The notes below the pieces were generated by a model, which did not search any database, had not been told where the DNA came from, and worked only from the letters and a program-made list of their open reading frames with translations. From positions 1-23,196 of IMG/VR virus record IMGVR_UViG_3300024520_000511: a stretch of DNA of 23,196 nt; one strand, written 5' to 3'. Positions 14,910-21,916 of the stretch are shown piece by piece (within the stretch, counting starts at the first letter, position 1; every line of letters begins with the position of its first letter). Both the position numbers and the translations under genes were made by a program. This stretch comes from a virus.

Positions 14910-15521
14910 ATGAGCTGGACAACAATTCCCGATTCAGATCTGGACCAAGACAGCCCGCTAAATCAGCCGCTGATGACGGCGTTGCGAGATAACCCGATTG
15001 CGATTGCGCAGGGCCTGAGCGGGGCAACTGTGAATGAAACCGCGTGGCATCAGCTAGAGGAATTGACGATCGGTTCCGATGGCTCAACAATTACGTTCAC
15101 AACTGACACCAGCGGCTATCGCGCAGTAAGGATTATCGGCGGCTGCGCGATTGTCAGTGCCACTAATCCTAGTGTCAACATTCAAGTCAACATCAGTGGT
15201 TATTCAACTATCGCCCCAATCTCCTACACGGGCACCGCACCTACTGCGTTCATGTGTGATGTAACTATCGACAATATGGACAGCACGGCGGCCGCGGCGC
15301 AGAAAATAATCTCAGGCCTAACTATGTTTTGGGATCGCACAACGGCCACAAACGATTGGGATACGACTTCCTCATCTACAGCCCCGGTGACGCTTTTAGG
15401 GGTTAAAAAATCCTCTGTCGTAGTTAGCGCCGTGCAACTAGACTTTGGAGCGAATACCGTAGACGTGTCAGAAGGCGCGCCGACATTTCACCTCTACGGC
15501 GTCAAGCGCACGCAACCTTAA
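14910..15521 (+). CDS. Putative tail fibre-associated protein
   Basis: 203 residues, last gene of the plus-strand module. It opens with WTTIPDSDLDQDSPLNQPLMTAL then RDNPIAIAQGLSGA, an opening seen in small phage tail or fibre proteins of alphaproteobacterial phages. The rest is Ser/Thr-rich and probably beta-rich, as in a receptor-contact or trimerising domain. AAGGAAAG at 14899-14906, overlapping the previous stop, is the likely ribosome site. A strong terminator follows 36 bases after its stop. The function is inferred from opening pattern and position. Confidence 0.6.
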   Translation: MSWTTIPDSDLDQDSPLNQPLMTALRDNPIAIAQGLSGATVNETAWHQLEELTIGSDGSTITFTTDTSGYRAVRIIGGCAIVSATNPSVNIQVNISGYSTIAPISYTGTAPTAFMCDVTIDNMDSTAAAAQKIISGLTMFWDRTTATNDWDTTSSSTAPVTLLGVKKSSVVVSAVQLDFGANTVDVSEGAPTFHLYGVKRTQP

Positions 15522-15556
15522 CCCTGCCGTTTTCTCCTTGGGACGAGCGGGAAACT

Positions 15557-15582
15557 GCGGGGGTTTACGCCCCCGCTTTTTT
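15557..15582 (+). terminator. Intrinsic terminator of the structural operon
   Basis: A perfect 7-base GC stem (GCGGGGG at 15557-15563 with CCCCCGC at 15570-15576), a 6-base loop and six T at 15577-15582. This is a textbook rho-independent terminator for the plus strand. The TAA stop of the convergent ATPase gene lies in the loop. Read from the minus strand the same stem exists but only a weak T run (AGTTTCCC) follows, so termination in that direction is less certain. Confidence 0.92.
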
Positions 15583-16758
15583 GCCTCTTGGGATAAAGGC
15601 ATCACCAGCTTTGGTCATGCGTTTTTCCATCATCTGACCCTGTTCCATCATGTCTATGGTGGGTTGAATGCTGTGAACGGGCACCCTTTCCTGCAAGAAG
15701 TTAATAAGGCGATGCTTAAGCACCGGCTTGCCTTCTTTCGCGTGAGTTGTGAATAGATAATACCAAGCATCCTCCATAACTTTCCCTGCGCCGCCTTGCG
15801 ACATGGCTTTGAAAATATCGGGCATGTATAGCTCGACTTCCGTCATCCAGTTAAGCGCGCGCTCAAAATCTTCCATAGTTATTACGAGTTCGTTTGAGCG
15901 ACTGACGCTGGCTACCATGCAGAGTTTAAGCAGATGGACTGTTCGCCGGATGTTGTAGGATATAAGTTTTGGATGATCGGGTTTAGGTTCTCCATCTGTC
16001 ATGTGGAAATGATCCATCGCCACAGCGGAGGCTTTCTCGAATTTAATCTCCCCGAACAGGGAAGCGATCTCTGCTAGGTGTTCTTCTAGCAAATTATATT
16101 CATCCTCATTTATGTCGGATTCCGCAAACAGGCTGCGGAGCTGCCGCTCACCTGAGTATACTAGCATGGTGCGGCTAAGAAAGCCCTGATCCCAAGCGCC
16201 CTCCGGGAGTACGTGCATCAAGTAGCTAGGAGTACAGGCAGCCAAGAAGTTAAGCTGAGGGTTGGCTATGTCAATCTCCAGCTTCGCGGTTCTCCTTCTT
16301 TCTGAATAGTGCTTGCAGTCCCAAAGATCAGTAAGCGTATTCATGAATTCATTTTCATACGCGGGAAGTAGCACGCCGAGTTCGTTGATGCATAGTAAGA
16401 GAGAGTTGAAAGTGGTTACTGGATTTTTGTGGTTCTCCGGCGTCACTATTCGGCGGGTTGCTTCCGCCAGTTCATCAATCAACGATGCCTTGGTCACGCT
16501 AGTACGCGCGATGTGGTGATCGTCCAGGCTTTCCCAGAGTTTGCGGATGCGCCACGTTACTTCGGTTTTGCCTACCCCCGGAGGGGCCACCAGCACCACA
16601 TACATATTGGAGTATAGTCGGGACTTCAGGGTTCGTACATAGGTCTTGCGCTCCATAGCGCCCGCAATAGTTGAGATTGCGCCCCAGAGCCTGAAGATCC
16701 GGGGCGATGATGTTTCTGCTGTGTGGTTAAGGAAACTTTCAACCCAATCTGGTCTCAT
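15565..16758 (-). CDS. DUF3987-like replication ATPase (helicase-like)
   Basis: 397 residues. Walker A is APPGVGKT (58-65), preceded by LYSNMYVVLV, and a Walker B-like strand LLLCINELG (about 120-128) carries an Asn-Glu pair. The opening SPRIFRLWGAISTIAGAMERK is characteristic of the phage DUF3987-type ATPases that often sit with primase or polymerase genes and are thought to act as replicative helicases. No primase domain is present. AGGGAT lies a few bases before the ATG, which overlaps the polymerase stop by four bases. The last 60 residues resemble a winged-helix end (HRLINFLQERVPVHSI). The exact activity is not shown by sequence alone. Confidence 0.82.
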   Translation of the reverse strand: MRPDWVESFLNHTAETSSPRIFRLWGAISTIAGAMERKTYVRTLKSRLYSNMYVVLVAPPGVGKTEVTWRIRKLWESLDDHHIARTSVTKASLIDELAEATRRIVTPENHKNPVTTFNSLLLCINELGVLLPAYENEFMNTLTDLWDCKHYSERRRTAKLEIDIANPQLNFLAACTPSYLMHVLPEGAWDQGFLSRTMLVYSGERQLRSLFAESDINEDEYNLLEEHLAEIASLFGEIKFEKASAVAMDHFHMTDGEPKPDHPKLISYNIRRTVHLLKLCMVASVSRSNELVITMEDFERALNWMTEVELYMPDIFKAMSQGGAGKVMEDAWYYLFTTHAKEGKPVLKHRLINFLQERVPVHSIQPTIDMMEQGQMMEKRMTKAGDAFIPRGKKAGA

Positions 16759-18329
16759 AGAATATCCCTAAAACTCTTGCGCTTGCGCGGGCGAAACATA
16801 GGAGGAATGCGCTCTTCTTTTCCCTTCCAGCCTTTAAGGCCGTAGGGATTTTCAGGGCTGGCATAGCCCCAATTCCAGCCGCCAGCGGCGTCTAGGGGCA
16901 CAGAAAATATACGACCCTGTGCTAATTCGATCTTCACTTGCATCGTCTCTAGAATGCGCGGCACCAAAGCAGTAGCTTCGCTCATAGGGACTTGAAAGAG
17001 AATAGAATCATGCACCTGATTTAGGAGTTGAACCTGTGGATAGGCTTTCCAGACTTGATGTAGGCCGCGGTCAATGGCCTCTCCCGTACAAGATTGCGGC
17101 TCATAGGCGATGGCTTTGCGGTGGGTTGCTGCGTCCCCGCCCCTCCCAAAGAATATACGCCGCCTACCAAATAGTGTTGTGATTTGCCCTGTTTCCCGCA
17201 CTTGCTCGATTCGGGTTTTGTGCCACAACGGGATAGCCGGGAAGGCCCGGAAATACCTGTTTTGGAAGTTCTCGATGATAGGTGTAGGAGTGTGCGTGTG
17301 CTTTGCCATTGTTCGTGGCGTGCCGAGGTAGTTGGTGCCGTGTCCAAGCTTTTTCGCCAGCTGCCGATATGAGTCCTGTCCATGCGCCGTAAGGTCATCG
17401 CAGAACTTCTTCCAGGTTGTTTCATCCTCAGGCCAATCAAGTTCAGGCCAGGCCATGCGACAGACTGTCGTGTGCAGGTCGCCGGAATCACAGGCATCAA
17501 TGAAACGACCCGCGAATTCTGGTCCCTTTTCCTCGACAAACAGGTTCCACATTATAGCGCCGACAAATCTAGCATCTGACTGCTCCAGATCGACGTTGAG
17601 AAGGTAGTAGCCTTTGTCGGCCTCGAAAGGATAGCGCAGCTTGCGGTTGACGTTCTGCAAGTTGGTGCCAGTGCCGAAGTCGCTCATGGACGAAGAAAGG
17701 CGACCTGTGTTGGTGCCTGTTATGTTGTAGTTGCAGCGAATCCGACTATCCGCGTCAATCTCCGTTTTCAGAAAGCTAAGCTGCTTGCGCCAGTCCTTGA
17801 GGATCAGAATGAAGTTGGCGATTGGTCGTGCATAGACGTAATTGGCCGCGAAGGTTTCCAACGCGGCTGCATCAACTGTAGGCTGAAATTGACCTGTCTG
17901 GGGGTTGCGCTTGCGTATTTCCTTGATTTGCATCATGTTGTAGAAGAAGTTTTTCAGCTGATGTGGGCTGTTCCAGTTGAAGTAGTATTTGGGGTTATCT
18001 TCCTGCTGACACGCCACCTTCATAATACGCTGAAATTTTGCGTCGAGTTCATCAAGGTCTTTTGTGATTTCGGCTATGGATTTTCGGCGCACGTTTTCAT
18101 TGATGTAAGTGCCGCGTAGCGACATTTCCATAATTGGCGCAAGTTTGTCCAGCGCGTAATTGTAGGTTTCGCGCACGTTATCCGGCTCGTCGTCCATTAC
18201 CGCATTCAGGCGGTTGAACACTTCCGAGGTAACGCAGCAGTCAAGGCCGTTATAAATCCAGCTTGTTTCATCCGCGTTCAGTTGCTGAAGGGATTGCTCG
18301 TCAAACTGTGATGTGTCATATACGATCAT
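16755..18329 (-). CDS. Family A DNA polymerase (with only Exo III of its proofreading domain)
   Basis: 524 residues. Polymerase motifs are clear: TGRLSS (about 208-213), motif A VDLEQSDAR with Asp247, motif B RQLAKKLGHGTNYLG with Arg322, Lys326 and Tyr334, and motif C QVHDSIL with His440-Asp441. The N terminus has YNGLDCCVT (Tyr26, Asp30), which matches Exo III (Y-x3-D) of Pol I proofreading domains, but Exo I and Exo II are absent. They occur in the protein encoded at 18834-19841, two genes upstream. Compared with E. coli Pol I, position 762 is His330 and the Glu of HDE is Ser442. GGAG lies eight bases before the ATG, which overlaps the previous stop by four bases. Confidence 0.93.
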   Translation of the reverse strand: MIVYDTSQFDEQSLQQLNADETSWIYNGLDCCVTSEVFNRLNAVMDDEPDNVRETYNYALDKLAPIMEMSLRGTYINENVRRKSIAEITKDLDELDAKFQRIMKVACQQEDNPKYYFNWNSPHQLKNFFYNMMQIKEIRKRNPQTGQFQPTVDAAALETFAANYVYARPIANFILILKDWRKQLSFLKTEIDADSRIRCNYNITGTNTGRLSSSMSDFGTGTNLQNVNRKLRYPFEADKGYYLLNVDLEQSDARFVGAIMWNLFVEEKGPEFAGRFIDACDSGDLHTTVCRMAWPELDWPEDETTWKKFCDDLTAHGQDSYRQLAKKLGHGTNYLGTPRTMAKHTHTPTPIIENFQNRYFRAFPAIPLWHKTRIEQVRETGQITTLFGRRRIFFGRGGDAATHRKAIAYEPQSCTGEAIDRGLHQVWKAYPQVQLLNQVHDSILFQVPMSEATALVPRILETMQVKIELAQGRIFSVPLDAAGGWNWGYASPENPYGLKGWKGKEERIPPMFRPRKRKSFRDIL

Positions 18330-18655
18330 TTCAGCGGCTCCACATAAGATACCGGAATGCTGTTTTCTAGGGCTTTGCCTATTTCGTAGCTGATGCCGCG
18401 CGACTCTTTCCAGCCTTCCAGTGTAAGAATGTGGATGTTAGAGGCGAGTAGTAGCATCTGGTCGTTAAAATCTGTCCAGGCTTCGAACGGGATCAGATTC
18501 GAGTCTAGGGTGGAAAAGGAGTGGCCGTAGACAATAGGAGAAAAGATTAGATTTCCCATTTGCATCTGGAGATGAGTATAGCGCAACGCGGCCTGAAATC
18601 GCGAGTTGCGGATTTGCGGCTGGTAATGCGTGTAGGGGCTGGCGAGATAGATCAT
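18326..18655 (-). CDS. DUF1937 family protein
   Basis: 109 residues. It starts MIYLASPYTHYQP, has IRNSRFQAALRYTH, GNLIFSPIVYGHS, the helix WTDFNDQMLLLASN, LTLEGWKESRGISYEIGKA and a final PVSYV strand. This is the DUF1937 pattern, related to nucleoside 2-deoxyribosyltransferases; the usual FSPI and S-x-G-x-x-x-E elements are visible. A role in nucleotide metabolism or base exchange is possible but untested in this family. AAGGAT lies about eight bases before the ATG. It overlaps both neighbours by four bases and sits between the two halves of the polymerase proofreading domain. Confidence 0.8.
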   Translation of the reverse strand: MIYLASPYTHYQPQIRNSRFQAALRYTHLQMQMGNLIFSPIVYGHSFSTLDSNLIPFEAWTDFNDQMLLLASNIHILTLEGWKESRGISYEIGKALENSIPVSYVEPLK

Positions 18656-18834
18656 TTTTCGTTATCCTTATTCGCGCGGATGTAAGCCCGCGCCTGCGCA
18701 ACGCTGCTGCAAATCTTAACAGGGGTGTGGTCGGGGTCGAGGACCGTGACATACTGGCGGGACTTAGCTTTGCCAATCCAGCCCCATCCGCTTTTCAGGA
18801 ACGTCTTTTTGGGTACATACTTGCTCAGGTTCAT
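18652..18834 (-). CDS. Small hypothetical protein between the polymerase parts
   Basis: 60 residues from the ATG whose first base is at 18834. A GTG three bases earlier is also in frame, but GGGAGGA at 18841-18847 is six bases from the ATG, a better distance. The ATG shares one base with the stop of the exonuclease gene. The product is basic, with a SGWGWIGKAKSRQYVTV strand segment and a C-terminal helix (SSVAQARAYIRANKD). I do not recognise it. The fold could be a small nucleic-acid-binding or adaptor module. Its place makes a link to the polymerase or exonuclease plausible, but that is speculation. Confidence 0.65.
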   Translation of the reverse strand: MNLSKYVPKKTFLKSGWGWIGKAKSRQYVTVLDPDHTPVKICSSVAQARAYIRANKDNEK

Positions 18835-19841
18835 CACACATCCTCCCGCTTCAGCGTATCATTTGTTTTGCGCATGAATTTCCATGACGGCTCATCAGTG
18901 TAAATGGAGCCTAGAAAGCCCAGACCTTTTTCCATTTCCGGCTGCAATGCGTGGTGCATTACCATAGTATCGCCGTGGAATTTGGGGCAGGGAATTCCCA
19001 CCGTGCGCCAGAAGTAGGTCATGTCGTAAACGAAGTTCTGCCCAACTAGCGGTTTTTCTTCGTTAATGCGGCGTACCCATTTCCAGGCCTGCTGTTCCAG
19101 CGCAGCGGTGCCCCAGTAATTACCGTCAGCCGCAAGCCGACTGTAAAAGGGAATTACCAACGCGCGCTTGCCGTCAGCGGTAGAGTAACCTACTTCTGTG
19201 ATGTGGCGTTGCTTGGTTTCAATGTCGCAGCCAAGAAACGGGCTGGGAACAATGTAGCGATGATAGAAATCTTCTATATCCGCGAGGTCTGGCGCTAAGT
19301 GGATGTAGCGGGCGGGGCGGCGCAATTCAGGAAATGCTGCTTCGCGCTTGGCTTTTGTAAAGTCTGCCAGCGCTACAACCCGCATCTCCCAATTACGGAT
19401 TATTGAGATCATAGGCCAAGTTGCTAGGACTTTAAACTCGCGGGCTTCGATGGGAAAGGAGGCCATAGGCGAGCCGCGGTATTTTTTGAGTCCGGTTTTC
19501 TTGCACAGCGCCCACAAAGCCAGGTTGCCTAATGCAATAATGACATTAGGGTTTATCGCCAATACTTCTTGGCCCAGCCGCTCTAATTCAGGGGCAAACT
19601 CACTTCTGATGTATTTGCCCTGAGCCAGTGCGCGGTAGCCAGAAATGGCCTGATCTTTAGGGCCGCAGAAATCCTCAACGCGGCCCCCTGGAGCAGGCCG
19701 GGAGATTACATAGGTAAAGTGGCAATCCTCTTCCGCGATTCCGGCTTGCGCAAGCAGTCCAAGCAAGAGGGCAGGCGCGTTGCGGCCTTCCTCACTTTCT
19801 GCGCGCGACATATATTCGCTGACTATCATGATTTTTGGCAT
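18834..19841 (-). CDS. UDG-like domain fused to the Exo I/Exo II part of a DnaQ-like 3'-5' exonuclease
   Basis: 335 residues. Residues 1 to about 165 resemble the uracil-DNA glycosylase superfamily (GRNAPALLLGLLAQAGI, NPNVIIALGNLALWAL, KYRGSPM), but the usual T-x-H-P motif reads TWPMISIIRNW without His, so glycosylase activity is doubtful. Residues 200-335 are a Pol I-type exonuclease: Exo I CDIET (Asp206, Glu208), Exo II GQNFVYD (Asn269, Asp273), then GDTMVMHHAL and YTDEPSWKFM. The protein stops at KREDV, before Exo III, which is found in the polymerase gene. GGGAG lies about eight bases before the ATG. UDG-like domains fused to phage polymerases are known, for example in SPO1-like phages. 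Confidence 0.82.
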   Translation of the reverse strand: MPKIMIVSEYMSRAESEEGRNAPALLLGLLAQAGIAEEDCHFTYVISRPAPGGRVEDFCGPKDQAISGYRALAQGKYIRSEFAPELERLGQEVLAINPNVIIALGNLALWALCKKTGLKKYRGSPMASFPIEAREFKVLATWPMISIIRNWEMRVVALADFTKAKREAAFPELRRPARYIHLAPDLADIEDFYHRYIVPSPFLGCDIETKQRHITEVGYSTADGKRALVIPFYSRLAADGNYWGTAALEQQAWKWVRRINEEKPLVGQNFVYDMTYFWRTVGIPCPKFHGDTMVMHHALQPEMEKGLGFLGSIYTDEPSWKFMRKTNDTLKREDV

Positions 19842-19866
19842 CTTGGGTTCTCCCGTCAGGGTAAGG

Positions 19867-19903
19867 TGGTATGGCTATAGGCGAATCGCCGGTATACGTA
19901 TCA
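19867..19903 (-). promoter_or_regulatory. Intergenic element, copy B (paired with 9430-9466)
   Basis: Minus-strand counterpart of copy A in the 63-base gap before the exonuclease gene. It has TACGTATA, then CGGCGA and CGCC (GGCG-ATT-CGCC hairpin) and CCATACCA at the same spacing, followed by the ribosome site and ATG. 29 of 37 positions agree with copy A, and the loop bases differ while the stem is kept. TACGTA itself is palindromic. It could be an operator, a phage-specific promoter or an RNA element. Confidence 0.45.
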
Positions 19904-19904
19904 A

Positions 19905-20582
19905 CTACGTTGAGTAGACCTCCGCCAAAGCTGTAAAAAATCCTCTAGGCGAAGCACTGCGTATTCTTTTAGTTTTCTCTGATTTACCTCCTAGCTTATT
20001 ATGCTGCGCAGAGTATCCCATATTCCGTGGAACGTGTTTCCGCTTAGGTACTCTAAAATTGGGTGAGTGCCAGATTCCTGTATTTTTAGGATAAGCGTCT
20101 CTGGGTTTTATATATTGCGGATAGTCAGGGTGTACGTCATCTTCTGGAAGATAGCCACCGAATTGAAATGGGTGAAAGTAAAAATTAGGAGGCCTCCACA
20201 TAGTAGCCAGAACCGATACTGGATTTTCCAGCCCCCAATCCGCATTACAGGCATTACCAATTCTTTCCACGCTACGCGCCAAATTTACCGCCTCTTCCTG
20301 AAAAAGAGGATTGCGTTTCTTCTTGGCAGCAAAGTGCCTAGCTCCAGATACCGCCAAATCTGTGCAAGGCGGAAAGCCAAATATTAAAGCGGCTCCTTTT
20401 CCTAGCTCGATTATATCTTGCTCCTTTTCCAGTATATCCCAAGAAAGCGTAACGTCGGCATTTTCATTTGTGGCGGCTGTCCCTACATTTTTAATGTCAA
20501 TTATGGTTGTATACCAGCCTCTCTCTTTGAAGCACTTAGCCGCATATCCAGTTGTCTCGAATAGAAAAATTACCCTTTTCAT
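19905..20582 (-). CDS. Dcm-like (C5-cytosine) DNA methyltransferase, short
   Basis: 225 residues. The opening IFLFETTGYAAKCFKERGW resembles the SAM-binding motif I of C5-cytosine methyltransferases. GFPPCTDLAVSG has the Pro-Cys of motif IV (Cys73 as nucleophile), GLENP (117-121) corresponds to motif VI, and SPRGFFTALAEVY to the C-terminal motif. A separate target-recognition domain is missing, so it is much shorter than bacterial Dcm. Phages carry such proteins, annotated as Dcm-like, which may protect DNA from restriction. Three 60-base blocks inside the gene (from 20041, 20161, 20461) have 72 of 180 G+C, against 65 of 120 in two blocks of the upstream gene, suggesting a different origin. 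AGGAGA precedes the ATG by nine bases. Confidence 0.78.
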   Translation of the reverse strand: MKRVIFLFETTGYAAKCFKERGWYTTIIDIKNVGTAATNENADVTLSWDILEKEQDIIELGKGAALIFGFPPCTDLAVSGARHFAAKKKRNPLFQEEAVNLARSVERIGNACNADWGLENPVSVLATMWRPPNFYFHPFQFGGYLPEDDVHPDYPQYIKPRDAYPKNTGIWHSPNFRVPKRKHVPRNMGYSAQHNKLGGKSEKTKRIRSASPRGFFTALAEVYST

Positions 20583-21916
20583 AGGCCGAGATTCTCCTTT
20601 GCCAGTTTCGCGTACTTTGCGTTAATCTCCAGGCCCGTCGCCCAATTCGCGCCTAGTTCTTCTGCCACGAAAACGGCATTACCGGAGCCTGCGGTGGGGT
20701 CCAGGAGGGAGGTGCTGCCATCGACCAGCATCCGCAGGTAATGCCGGAGCATTTCCTTGGGCTTTTCGCTGGTATGGAATTCTTTCTTGACAGGGCATTC
20801 GACGTAGTTGGCAACAGCGCGAACGATTTTGCGGTCGCCGCGCGTAGCGAGAAGGGCAGTTTCATAGGAGCGGCGTGGTCCTCTATTTGCGTCAGGGATC
20901 ATTCCCGTATTGCCTTTGCACCAGATAATGGGGAAGGGATTCACCACCCAGCCGGCCGCTTTTAGTTGGAGCCGTGTTTCTTCATAAAAGTCCATGCTGA
21001 ACCAGAAGATCAGGTGAGCCGAGGGCGCACAGAAATTATCGAGACGTGAACAGAAGGTTTCAAGCAGTTCCCAATATACCTCCGGCTTATCTGCGTAGCC
21101 TCCCCGCTCAATGGCGCCAGATTGCCCTTTAAGGTTGTCTCCCACGTTGACTCCGTAGGGAAAGTCGCAATGGATGAGGTTGTAGGGGCGATCCAGGACA
21201 GTCTTGGACCAGGTTTGGAAAGACTTGTTGAAGATTTCAGCACGGCGTTCTTCGACATGGGCCTGAACCTCGGCGGGAGTGAGAGAAAACGCAGAAGATG
21301 ATAGAGCAGAACCTGCCCCAGCAGTTGCCTCTTGCCCGCCGCCCGAAACTGGCGCGAAAGAAGGCTTGAGTAAATCTCGGGTTGCACTGTTCTTTTCCCT
21401 CTCAATAGCACGCTCCGCGAAGCTAACCGCTCTCGACAAAATCGGAGCATCCCGGACCTCAGGCTTGCCTTCCTCCAGAAATCTATTGACGTTTTTGTAG
21501 CGCGCTACATTGCGAGAGCTTACGCCCAAGGCTTCGGCGGTCTTTTCGTTATTCCATTCCTCTTCCGTCTCGCGCTTGAGCTTATCAAACTTCGCCACGG
21601 CCCGCACTTCATCCTGCCAATGCAGGTCGCTACGCTTGATGTTTTCTTCGAGTTCGATCATGTGCAGTTCTTGCTCGCTCAGTTCCTCGGTGAACTGAAC
21701 GGCGATCTGGTCGAAACCAAGCTGTTTGTGGGCAGTTAGGCGGCGCTCACCTGCAACCAGAACGTATTCGGGCGTGACGACAATGGGATTGATCAGGCCC
21801 AAGCGCCGGATGGAATCCGCCAGTTCATCAATGTCCTTGAGTTCGGTGCGCTGCCGCTCATCCCGATTGATCTGGATGGAGCCCACAGGGACTAGAGTGA
21901 AGTTACCGCTGGTCAT
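20579..21916 (-). CDS. ParB-like domain fused to DNA methyltransferase
   Basis: 445 residues. Residues 8-110 form a ParB/Srx-like domain with VLVAGERRL (53-60) and ENIKRSDL (91-98), followed by a helix-turn-helix near 124-140 (TAEALGVSSRNVARY). After a Ser/Gly/Ala-rich linker (about 185-215) comes an amino-methyltransferase of the beta order: motif IV CDFPYG (250-255) before HTSEKP (381-386) and motif I LLDPTAGSGNAVFVA (404-418). The catalytic D-P-P-Y is D-F-P-Y here. ParB-methyltransferase fusions are known in phages; they probably methylate adenine N6 or cytosine N4. The gene overlaps the Dcm-like gene by four bases and the upstream gene by 14. Confidence 0.88.
   Translation of the reverse strand: MTSGNFTLVPVGSIQINRDERQRTELKDIDELADSIRRLGLINPIVVTPEYVLVAGERRLTAHKQLGFDQIAVQFTEELSEQELHMIELEENIKRSDLHWQDEVRAVAKFDKLKRETEEEWNNEKTAEALGVSSRNVARYKNVNRFLEEGKPEVRDAPILSRAVSFAERAIEREKNSATRDLLKPSFAPVSGGGQEATAGAGSALSSSAFSLTPAEVQAHVEERRAEIFNKSFQTWSKTVLDRPYNLIHCDFPYGVNVGDNLKGQSGAIERGGYADKPEVYWELLETFCSRLDNFCAPSAHLIFWFSMDFYEETRLQLKAAGWVVNPFPIIWCKGNTGMIPDANRGPRRSYETALLATRGDRKIVRAVANYVECPVKKEFHTSEKPKEMLRHYLRMLVDGSTSLLDPTAGSGNAVFVAEELGANWATGLEINAKYAKLAKENLGL

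Follow-up and report, generated by a model that had tools for sequence, protein, structure and literature searches.

A phage family A DNA polymerase on two genes whose chains very probably assemble one proofreading exonuclease

In this study, we analysed a virus fragment from IMG/VR (record IMGVR_UViG_3300024520_000511; the whole stretch of 23,196 nucleotides is called the window here) and found a family A DNA polymerase broken into two genes. Because both chains retain the catalytic residues of the exonuclease in 173 non-redundant pairs and the chains covary above the level of shuffled pairings, the two proteins very probably constitute a phage replicase in two subunits that rebuild one proofreading exonuclease in trans, as the first-pass annotation of this DNA had proposed. 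The genes and motifs are located as follows.

18834 to 19841, minus strand: first chain, 335 aa, UDG-like domain and first part of the 3'-5' exonuclease with Exo I and Exo II (ORF, profiles and model)
19320 to 19841, minus strand: UDG-like domain, residues 1-174 (PF03167; VIA-align)
19218 to 19226, minus strand: Exo I, Asp206 and Glu208
19023 to 19037, minus strand: Exo II, Asn269 and Asp273
18837 to 18878, minus strand: new C-terminal tail of the first chain, residues 322-335
18652 to 18837, minus strand: ORF in the gap, 61 aa from GTG or 60 aa from ATG
18326 to 18655, minus strand: DUF1937 / nucleoside 2-deoxyribosyltransferase-like gene in the gap, 109 aa (PF09152, 46.6 bits; phrog_355)
16755 to 18329, minus strand: second chain, 524 aa, Exo III helix and family A polymerase domain (ORF and PF00476)
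18261 to 18329, minus strand: new N-terminal head of the second chain, residues 1-23, with the clade motif MKIIDTxxL
18240 to 18254, minus strand: Exo III, Tyr26 and Asp30
15565 to 16758, minus strand: DUF3987 / primase-helicase-like ATPase gene directly downstream of the polymerase (PF13148; phrog_14296)

As described earlier, Exo I and Exo II (D206, E208, D273) lie on the 335-aa protein and Exo III (Y26, D30) on the polymerase, and neither chain carries the full motif set. The identification of a DUF1937 protein between the halves also stands, while the small ORF next to it has no Pfam or PHROG match. The five minus-strand genes do overlap at their junctions, but by 4 bp throughout; the 1-bp overlap that had been given as the lower bound arises only if the small ORF starts at its ATG. 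A clear Shine-Dalgarno-like sequence precedes the 335-aa, 60/61-aa, DUF1937 and polymerase genes, the DUF3987 gene being the exception. Just upstream of the replication genes, at 20579-21916, a ParB-N domain is fused to an N6/N4 DNA methyltransferase (445 aa).

The two genes are a single broken polymerase, the halves of which match complementary parts of Klenow: chain residues 16-126 against the first-chain profile and 173-601 against the second-chain profile. Likewise, the first protein covers positions 480-789 and the second 808-1231 of the phrog_17 DNA polymerase profile. The second chain belongs to DNA polymerase family A (PF00476, 116.5 bits vs a cut-off of 34.3), and its AF2 model, predicted for the chain alone (pLDDT 94.5), matches Taq and Klenow with Z about 29 and aligns to Klenow residues 468 to 928. 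The polymerase motif residues R210, D247 and K326 (window numbering) are each present in 173/173 pairs, and D441 in 172/172 where aligned. The first chain, whose model was likewise predicted alone (pLDDT 93), was correctly recognized as carrying Exo I and Exo II, but the UDG-like fold of its residues 1-174 had been missed. PF03167 scores 26.3 bits vs a cut-off of 24.3 and VIA-align gives Z about 17 to family 4 UDG / UdgX, which places the domain in the family 4 UDG superfamily fold; with the NCBIfam type-4 UDG models the chain scores far below the cut-off. Motif A and the HPS region of this domain appear degenerate in the window, whereas Mel-JY34-type relatives retain the GEAPG and HP motifs. 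The exonuclease part of the first chain gives a weak PF01612 match and matches the EXD2 exonuclease fold with Z about 12.5; the VIA-align rows for this chain were mostly UDG, and the exonuclease part surfaced only via EXD2. Since the UDG-like domain is on the first protein, the order is UDG-exonuclease-polymerase, as in single-chain relatives.

The residue set of a DEDDy exonuclease (D-E / D / Y-D) is complete, spread over the two chains, in the 173 pairs, whose median identity is about 43%. D206, E208 and N269 are found in 173/173 pairs and D273 in 172/173 (one E), while on the other chain Y26 is kept in 169/173 and D30 in 172/172 where aligned. Because these residues are conserved on different genes, the target of selection is most likely a site to which both chains contribute, and by this sequence evidence the exonuclease is still under selection. 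The first-pass annotation had alternatively considered that proofreading is lost, with the break having inactivated the exonuclease and the pieces being kept for other reasons, namely the UDG-like domain and the polymerase. The break does fall within the exonuclease domain, and a divergent phage PolA is known in which the exonuclease residues have been replaced (divPolA1, PMC11348598). A dead domain would be expected to shed its catalytic residues, as divPolA1 did; however, those on both chains are near-invariant across a deep clade, which makes such a loss improbable.

Covariation between the chains was assessed by mean-field direct-coupling analysis on the true pairs (Neff 116). The top inter-chain coupling, G218-C31 (z 11.5), involves the residue adjoining the Exo III D30; it is followed by A298-A59, P286-N18 and A222-N39, and further by T275-S70 and F277-M67. 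With a smaller column set, real pairing gave a maximum z of 11.0 and a top-10 mean of 7.3. Over 8 shuffles of each kind, global shuffling reached no more than 4.3 and 3.0, respectively, and shuffling within close relatives no more than 8.7 and 5.5, bearing in mind that shared ancestry inflates covariation and that within-clade shuffling removes this in part only. In the full set, 12 of the 20 top couplings fall between the exonuclease and residues 1-60 of the second chain (expected 17%); in the smaller set 10/20 do so, with 3-11 in the shuffles and no clear excess. The coupled pairs map to continuous stretches of the modelled folds: in the first chain strand 213-221 and helix 270-281, in the second helices 19-46 and 63-72. 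From this we infer that they may represent physical contacts, and the pairs 218-31 and 222-39 would fit a strand lying along a helix in the predicted folds.

It could be argued that the chains act apart, the UDG and Exo I/II chain serving with another partner and Exo III being merely a structural helix of the polymerase. Each half is predicted with high confidence to fold alone, and the UDG-like domains of other proteins act in repair. This alternative is nevertheless unlikely, as an invariant Exo III Asp would be needless in a purely structural helix, the covariation connects the Exo I/II sheet with the neighbour of this Asp, and 222 times the two genes have remained together in a single locus.

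In intact relatives, 17-20 residues separate the WK and YNxxD motifs, whereas the window has 14 + 25 = 39 (split forms in general have about 14 residues after WK). Thus, both broken ends carry new sequence, and the near-normal distance across the break that was proposed earlier does not hold, the linker being about 20 residues longer than in intact relatives. In the tail, which has low pLDDT and is disordered in the single-chain model, M323, R324 and K331 are conserved across the clade (K331: K in 168 and R in 3 of 172). In the head, T6 is T in 150 and S in 17 of 171, and positions 3, 4 and 9 are hydrophobic. This conservation suggests a docking or folding role of the new ends.

The break is widespread. 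Four viral-contig scans and one genome scan, with loci classified by profile search, yielded 222 database loci split at the same point, among them one isolate, Caulobacter phage Kuura; some of these are repeated or overlapping retrievals of the same contig, and the 173 pairs are those left after removing identical ones. The same break in 222 loci is a pattern far beyond chance. An assembly or frameshift error that rejoins the frames was ruled out by these loci and the isolate genome, and sequencing error as well as splicing can be excluded or regarded as very unlikely. The comparison of intact and split relatives that the first-pass annotation had called for also identified a sister group of 81 phage loci in all with one chain (78/80 loci in one scan). 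Quick trees of 81 split and 24 intact representatives, with SH-aLRT as their only support value, were calculated separately for the second and for the first chain; in both, the split forms without exception fall into one clade (SH-aLRT 99), the state changes once, and the outgroups are intact. As the split forms group together in either tree, the break is old and apparently arose once, a single break being the simplest reading because the outgroups are intact. A re-scan for re-fused forms, seeded with the basal split group, gave 78/78 split and 0 intact loci. In bacterial genomes, the scan recovered a single split relative in a Sphingomonadales MAG (L242); the other matches were mostly unbroken Pol I-like genes, chiefly from Shewanella, with about 22-28% identity. 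In two near-identical relatives of the single-chain polymerases (L181 and L227, around L181:1400-1650), the exonuclease is interrupted earlier by about 240 bp with several stops. This interruption, which has no Rfam match in L181, may represent gene decay, an intron that escaped recognition or a second type of split.

What lies between the halves differs strongly between loci. Among 118 unique gaps the size ranges from -4 to 5080 bp (median about 540), and 10 of the 118 contain no gene. DUF1937 is found between the halves in 107/221 split loci, and about half have no DUF1937 anywhere in the locus. Other gaps contain HNH and endonuclease VII genes, MazG, a nucleotide kinase, DNA ligase or an Acb1-like anti-CBASS protein. 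Since size and contents vary, the gap is a variable cargo site. In L029, L039, L053, L145, L148 and others, the gap genes are MazG-like, of nucleotide metabolism or HNH endonucleases, with one Acb1 anti-CBASS match, and the site may therefore be worth searching for counter-defence genes. The gaps of L061, L065, L066, L069 and L072 are exactly 321 bp long with no consistent ORF, and could be non-coding or a decayed gene.

It was previously suggested that the 60-residue protein helps to join the halves, and more generally a gap protein (this one or DUF1937) might bridge them as a third subunit. The 4-bp overlaps of all the window genes and the frequency of DUF1937 in the gap speak for such a bridge. 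However, an ORF related to the 60-residue one recurs in one other locus only (L018), which rules it out as a general bridge and leaves it no conserved role, and DUF1937 is not supported as a required third subunit since the catalytic residues are kept despite the gene-free gaps and the many loci lacking it. A bridging gap protein is thus very improbable.

Even less probable is a rejoining of the halves to a single chain through an intron, a split intein, frameshifting or read-through. Group I introns are known in phage polymerase genes and were considered for phage MEP401 (PMC10580990), and split inteins are known in fractured genes. Yet there was no Rfam match at E <= 1 in 15500-20600, nor in seven related loci, and a group I intron was ruled out on this basis; a split intein was likewise rejected, as Pfam scans detected no intein domain and the new ends, at about 14 and 23 residues, are short. 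In addition, every gene possesses a start of its own together with a sequence resembling a ribosome site (a Shine-Dalgarno sequence lies upstream of the second chain in 58/115 loci vs 9.7% of random positions), and the gaps, ranging from overlap to about 5 kb, have unrelated contents.

Split phage replicases are already known, and the break point seen here is new among those we could find described. In agreement with the first-pass annotation, our search of the open-access literature yielded no family A polymerase described as split here; those that we found, in papers or phage records, break inside PF00476. The Methylophilales phages MEP401 and MEP402 have a split DNA polymerase (PMC10580990), but in MEP401 it is PF00476 itself that is interrupted (the first chain reaching profile position 132, the second starting at 154) and the first chain holds a complete exonuclease, whereas in the window the break precedes Exo III and PF00476 is wholly on the second chain. 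Vibrio phage VS-ABTNL-3 (L161) is broken at a place similar to MEP401, inside PF00476 and with a complete exonuclease on the first chain. These two phages are not close relatives, and both (L161:1909-5043; MEP401, L394:6111-8221) break at about profile position 132 to 140-154 with a small ORF between, so that their breaks look convergent. In T4-related Aeromonas phages, gp43 is split into 43A and 43B, with or without an inserted gene (PMC2988022), as had been noted for family B; like the window, these phages have the replicative polymerase on two chains, and the halves co-purify and are active according to a review (PMC2988022). They differ in having a family B polymerase of other fold and origin. 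For T4-like split genes, an origin by homing endonuclease insertion was described (PMC2988022), and by analogy it is plausible that the break reported here arose in the same way. SPO1-type / phrog_17 polymerases, Mel-JY34, MW202489 and Desulfofustis phage LS06 have the same order of UDG-like domain, exonuclease and polymerase, but on one unbroken chain; their downstream replication neighbour is similar (a DUF3987 family protein in L002, a DNA primase in L004). Caulobacter phage Kuura (OQ067476) is broken at the same place; its gap contains different genes, with no DUF1937 match, and the break is not remarked on in the Kuura paper (PMC9959647). ExnV1 (7r0t, PMC9629493) is a phage PolA exonuclease domain on its own chain, as in the window, but it is complete including the Exo III equivalents, and was described as a truncated polymerase gene (PMC9629493).

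A current model of the two-subunit replicase would be as follows. The ancestor was probably a single chain with UDG-like domain, DEDDy 3'-5' exonuclease and polymerase, in which the linker joining the Exo II part to the Exo III helix would have been broken once. The halves would then have gained a start or stop of their own, along with short, new and conserved ends. Once translated, the first chain, with its UDG domain and Exo I/II sheet, would pack against the Exo III helix opening the second chain, so that the metal-binding site (D206, E208 and D273 with Y26 and D30 of the other chain) would form only in the complex and proofread for the polymerase. The intergenic gap would have become a settling place for other genes not needed for assembly. 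It is tempting to speculate, although rather doubtfully, that proofreading resides in a subunit that can be separated: on its own, the second chain would lack exonuclease, and fidelity, or the coupling of uracil handling and proofreading, might be set by the dose of the UDG-exonuclease chain and the tightness of its binding via the conserved new ends.

The first half in Kuura is annotated as 'hypothetical protein', which is a warning to annotators, as proofreading may be mistakenly recorded as absent in such phages. A proofreading polymerase in two parts could also be a practical reagent. If our reading is true, these phages possess a natural DNA polymerase with a proofreading active site common to two proteins, kept clade-wide and with no re-fused form in the sample, and they would provide a clean system to study the functional persistence of a split catalytic domain, a proofreading switch by subunit dose and the tolerance of gene-breaking insertions.
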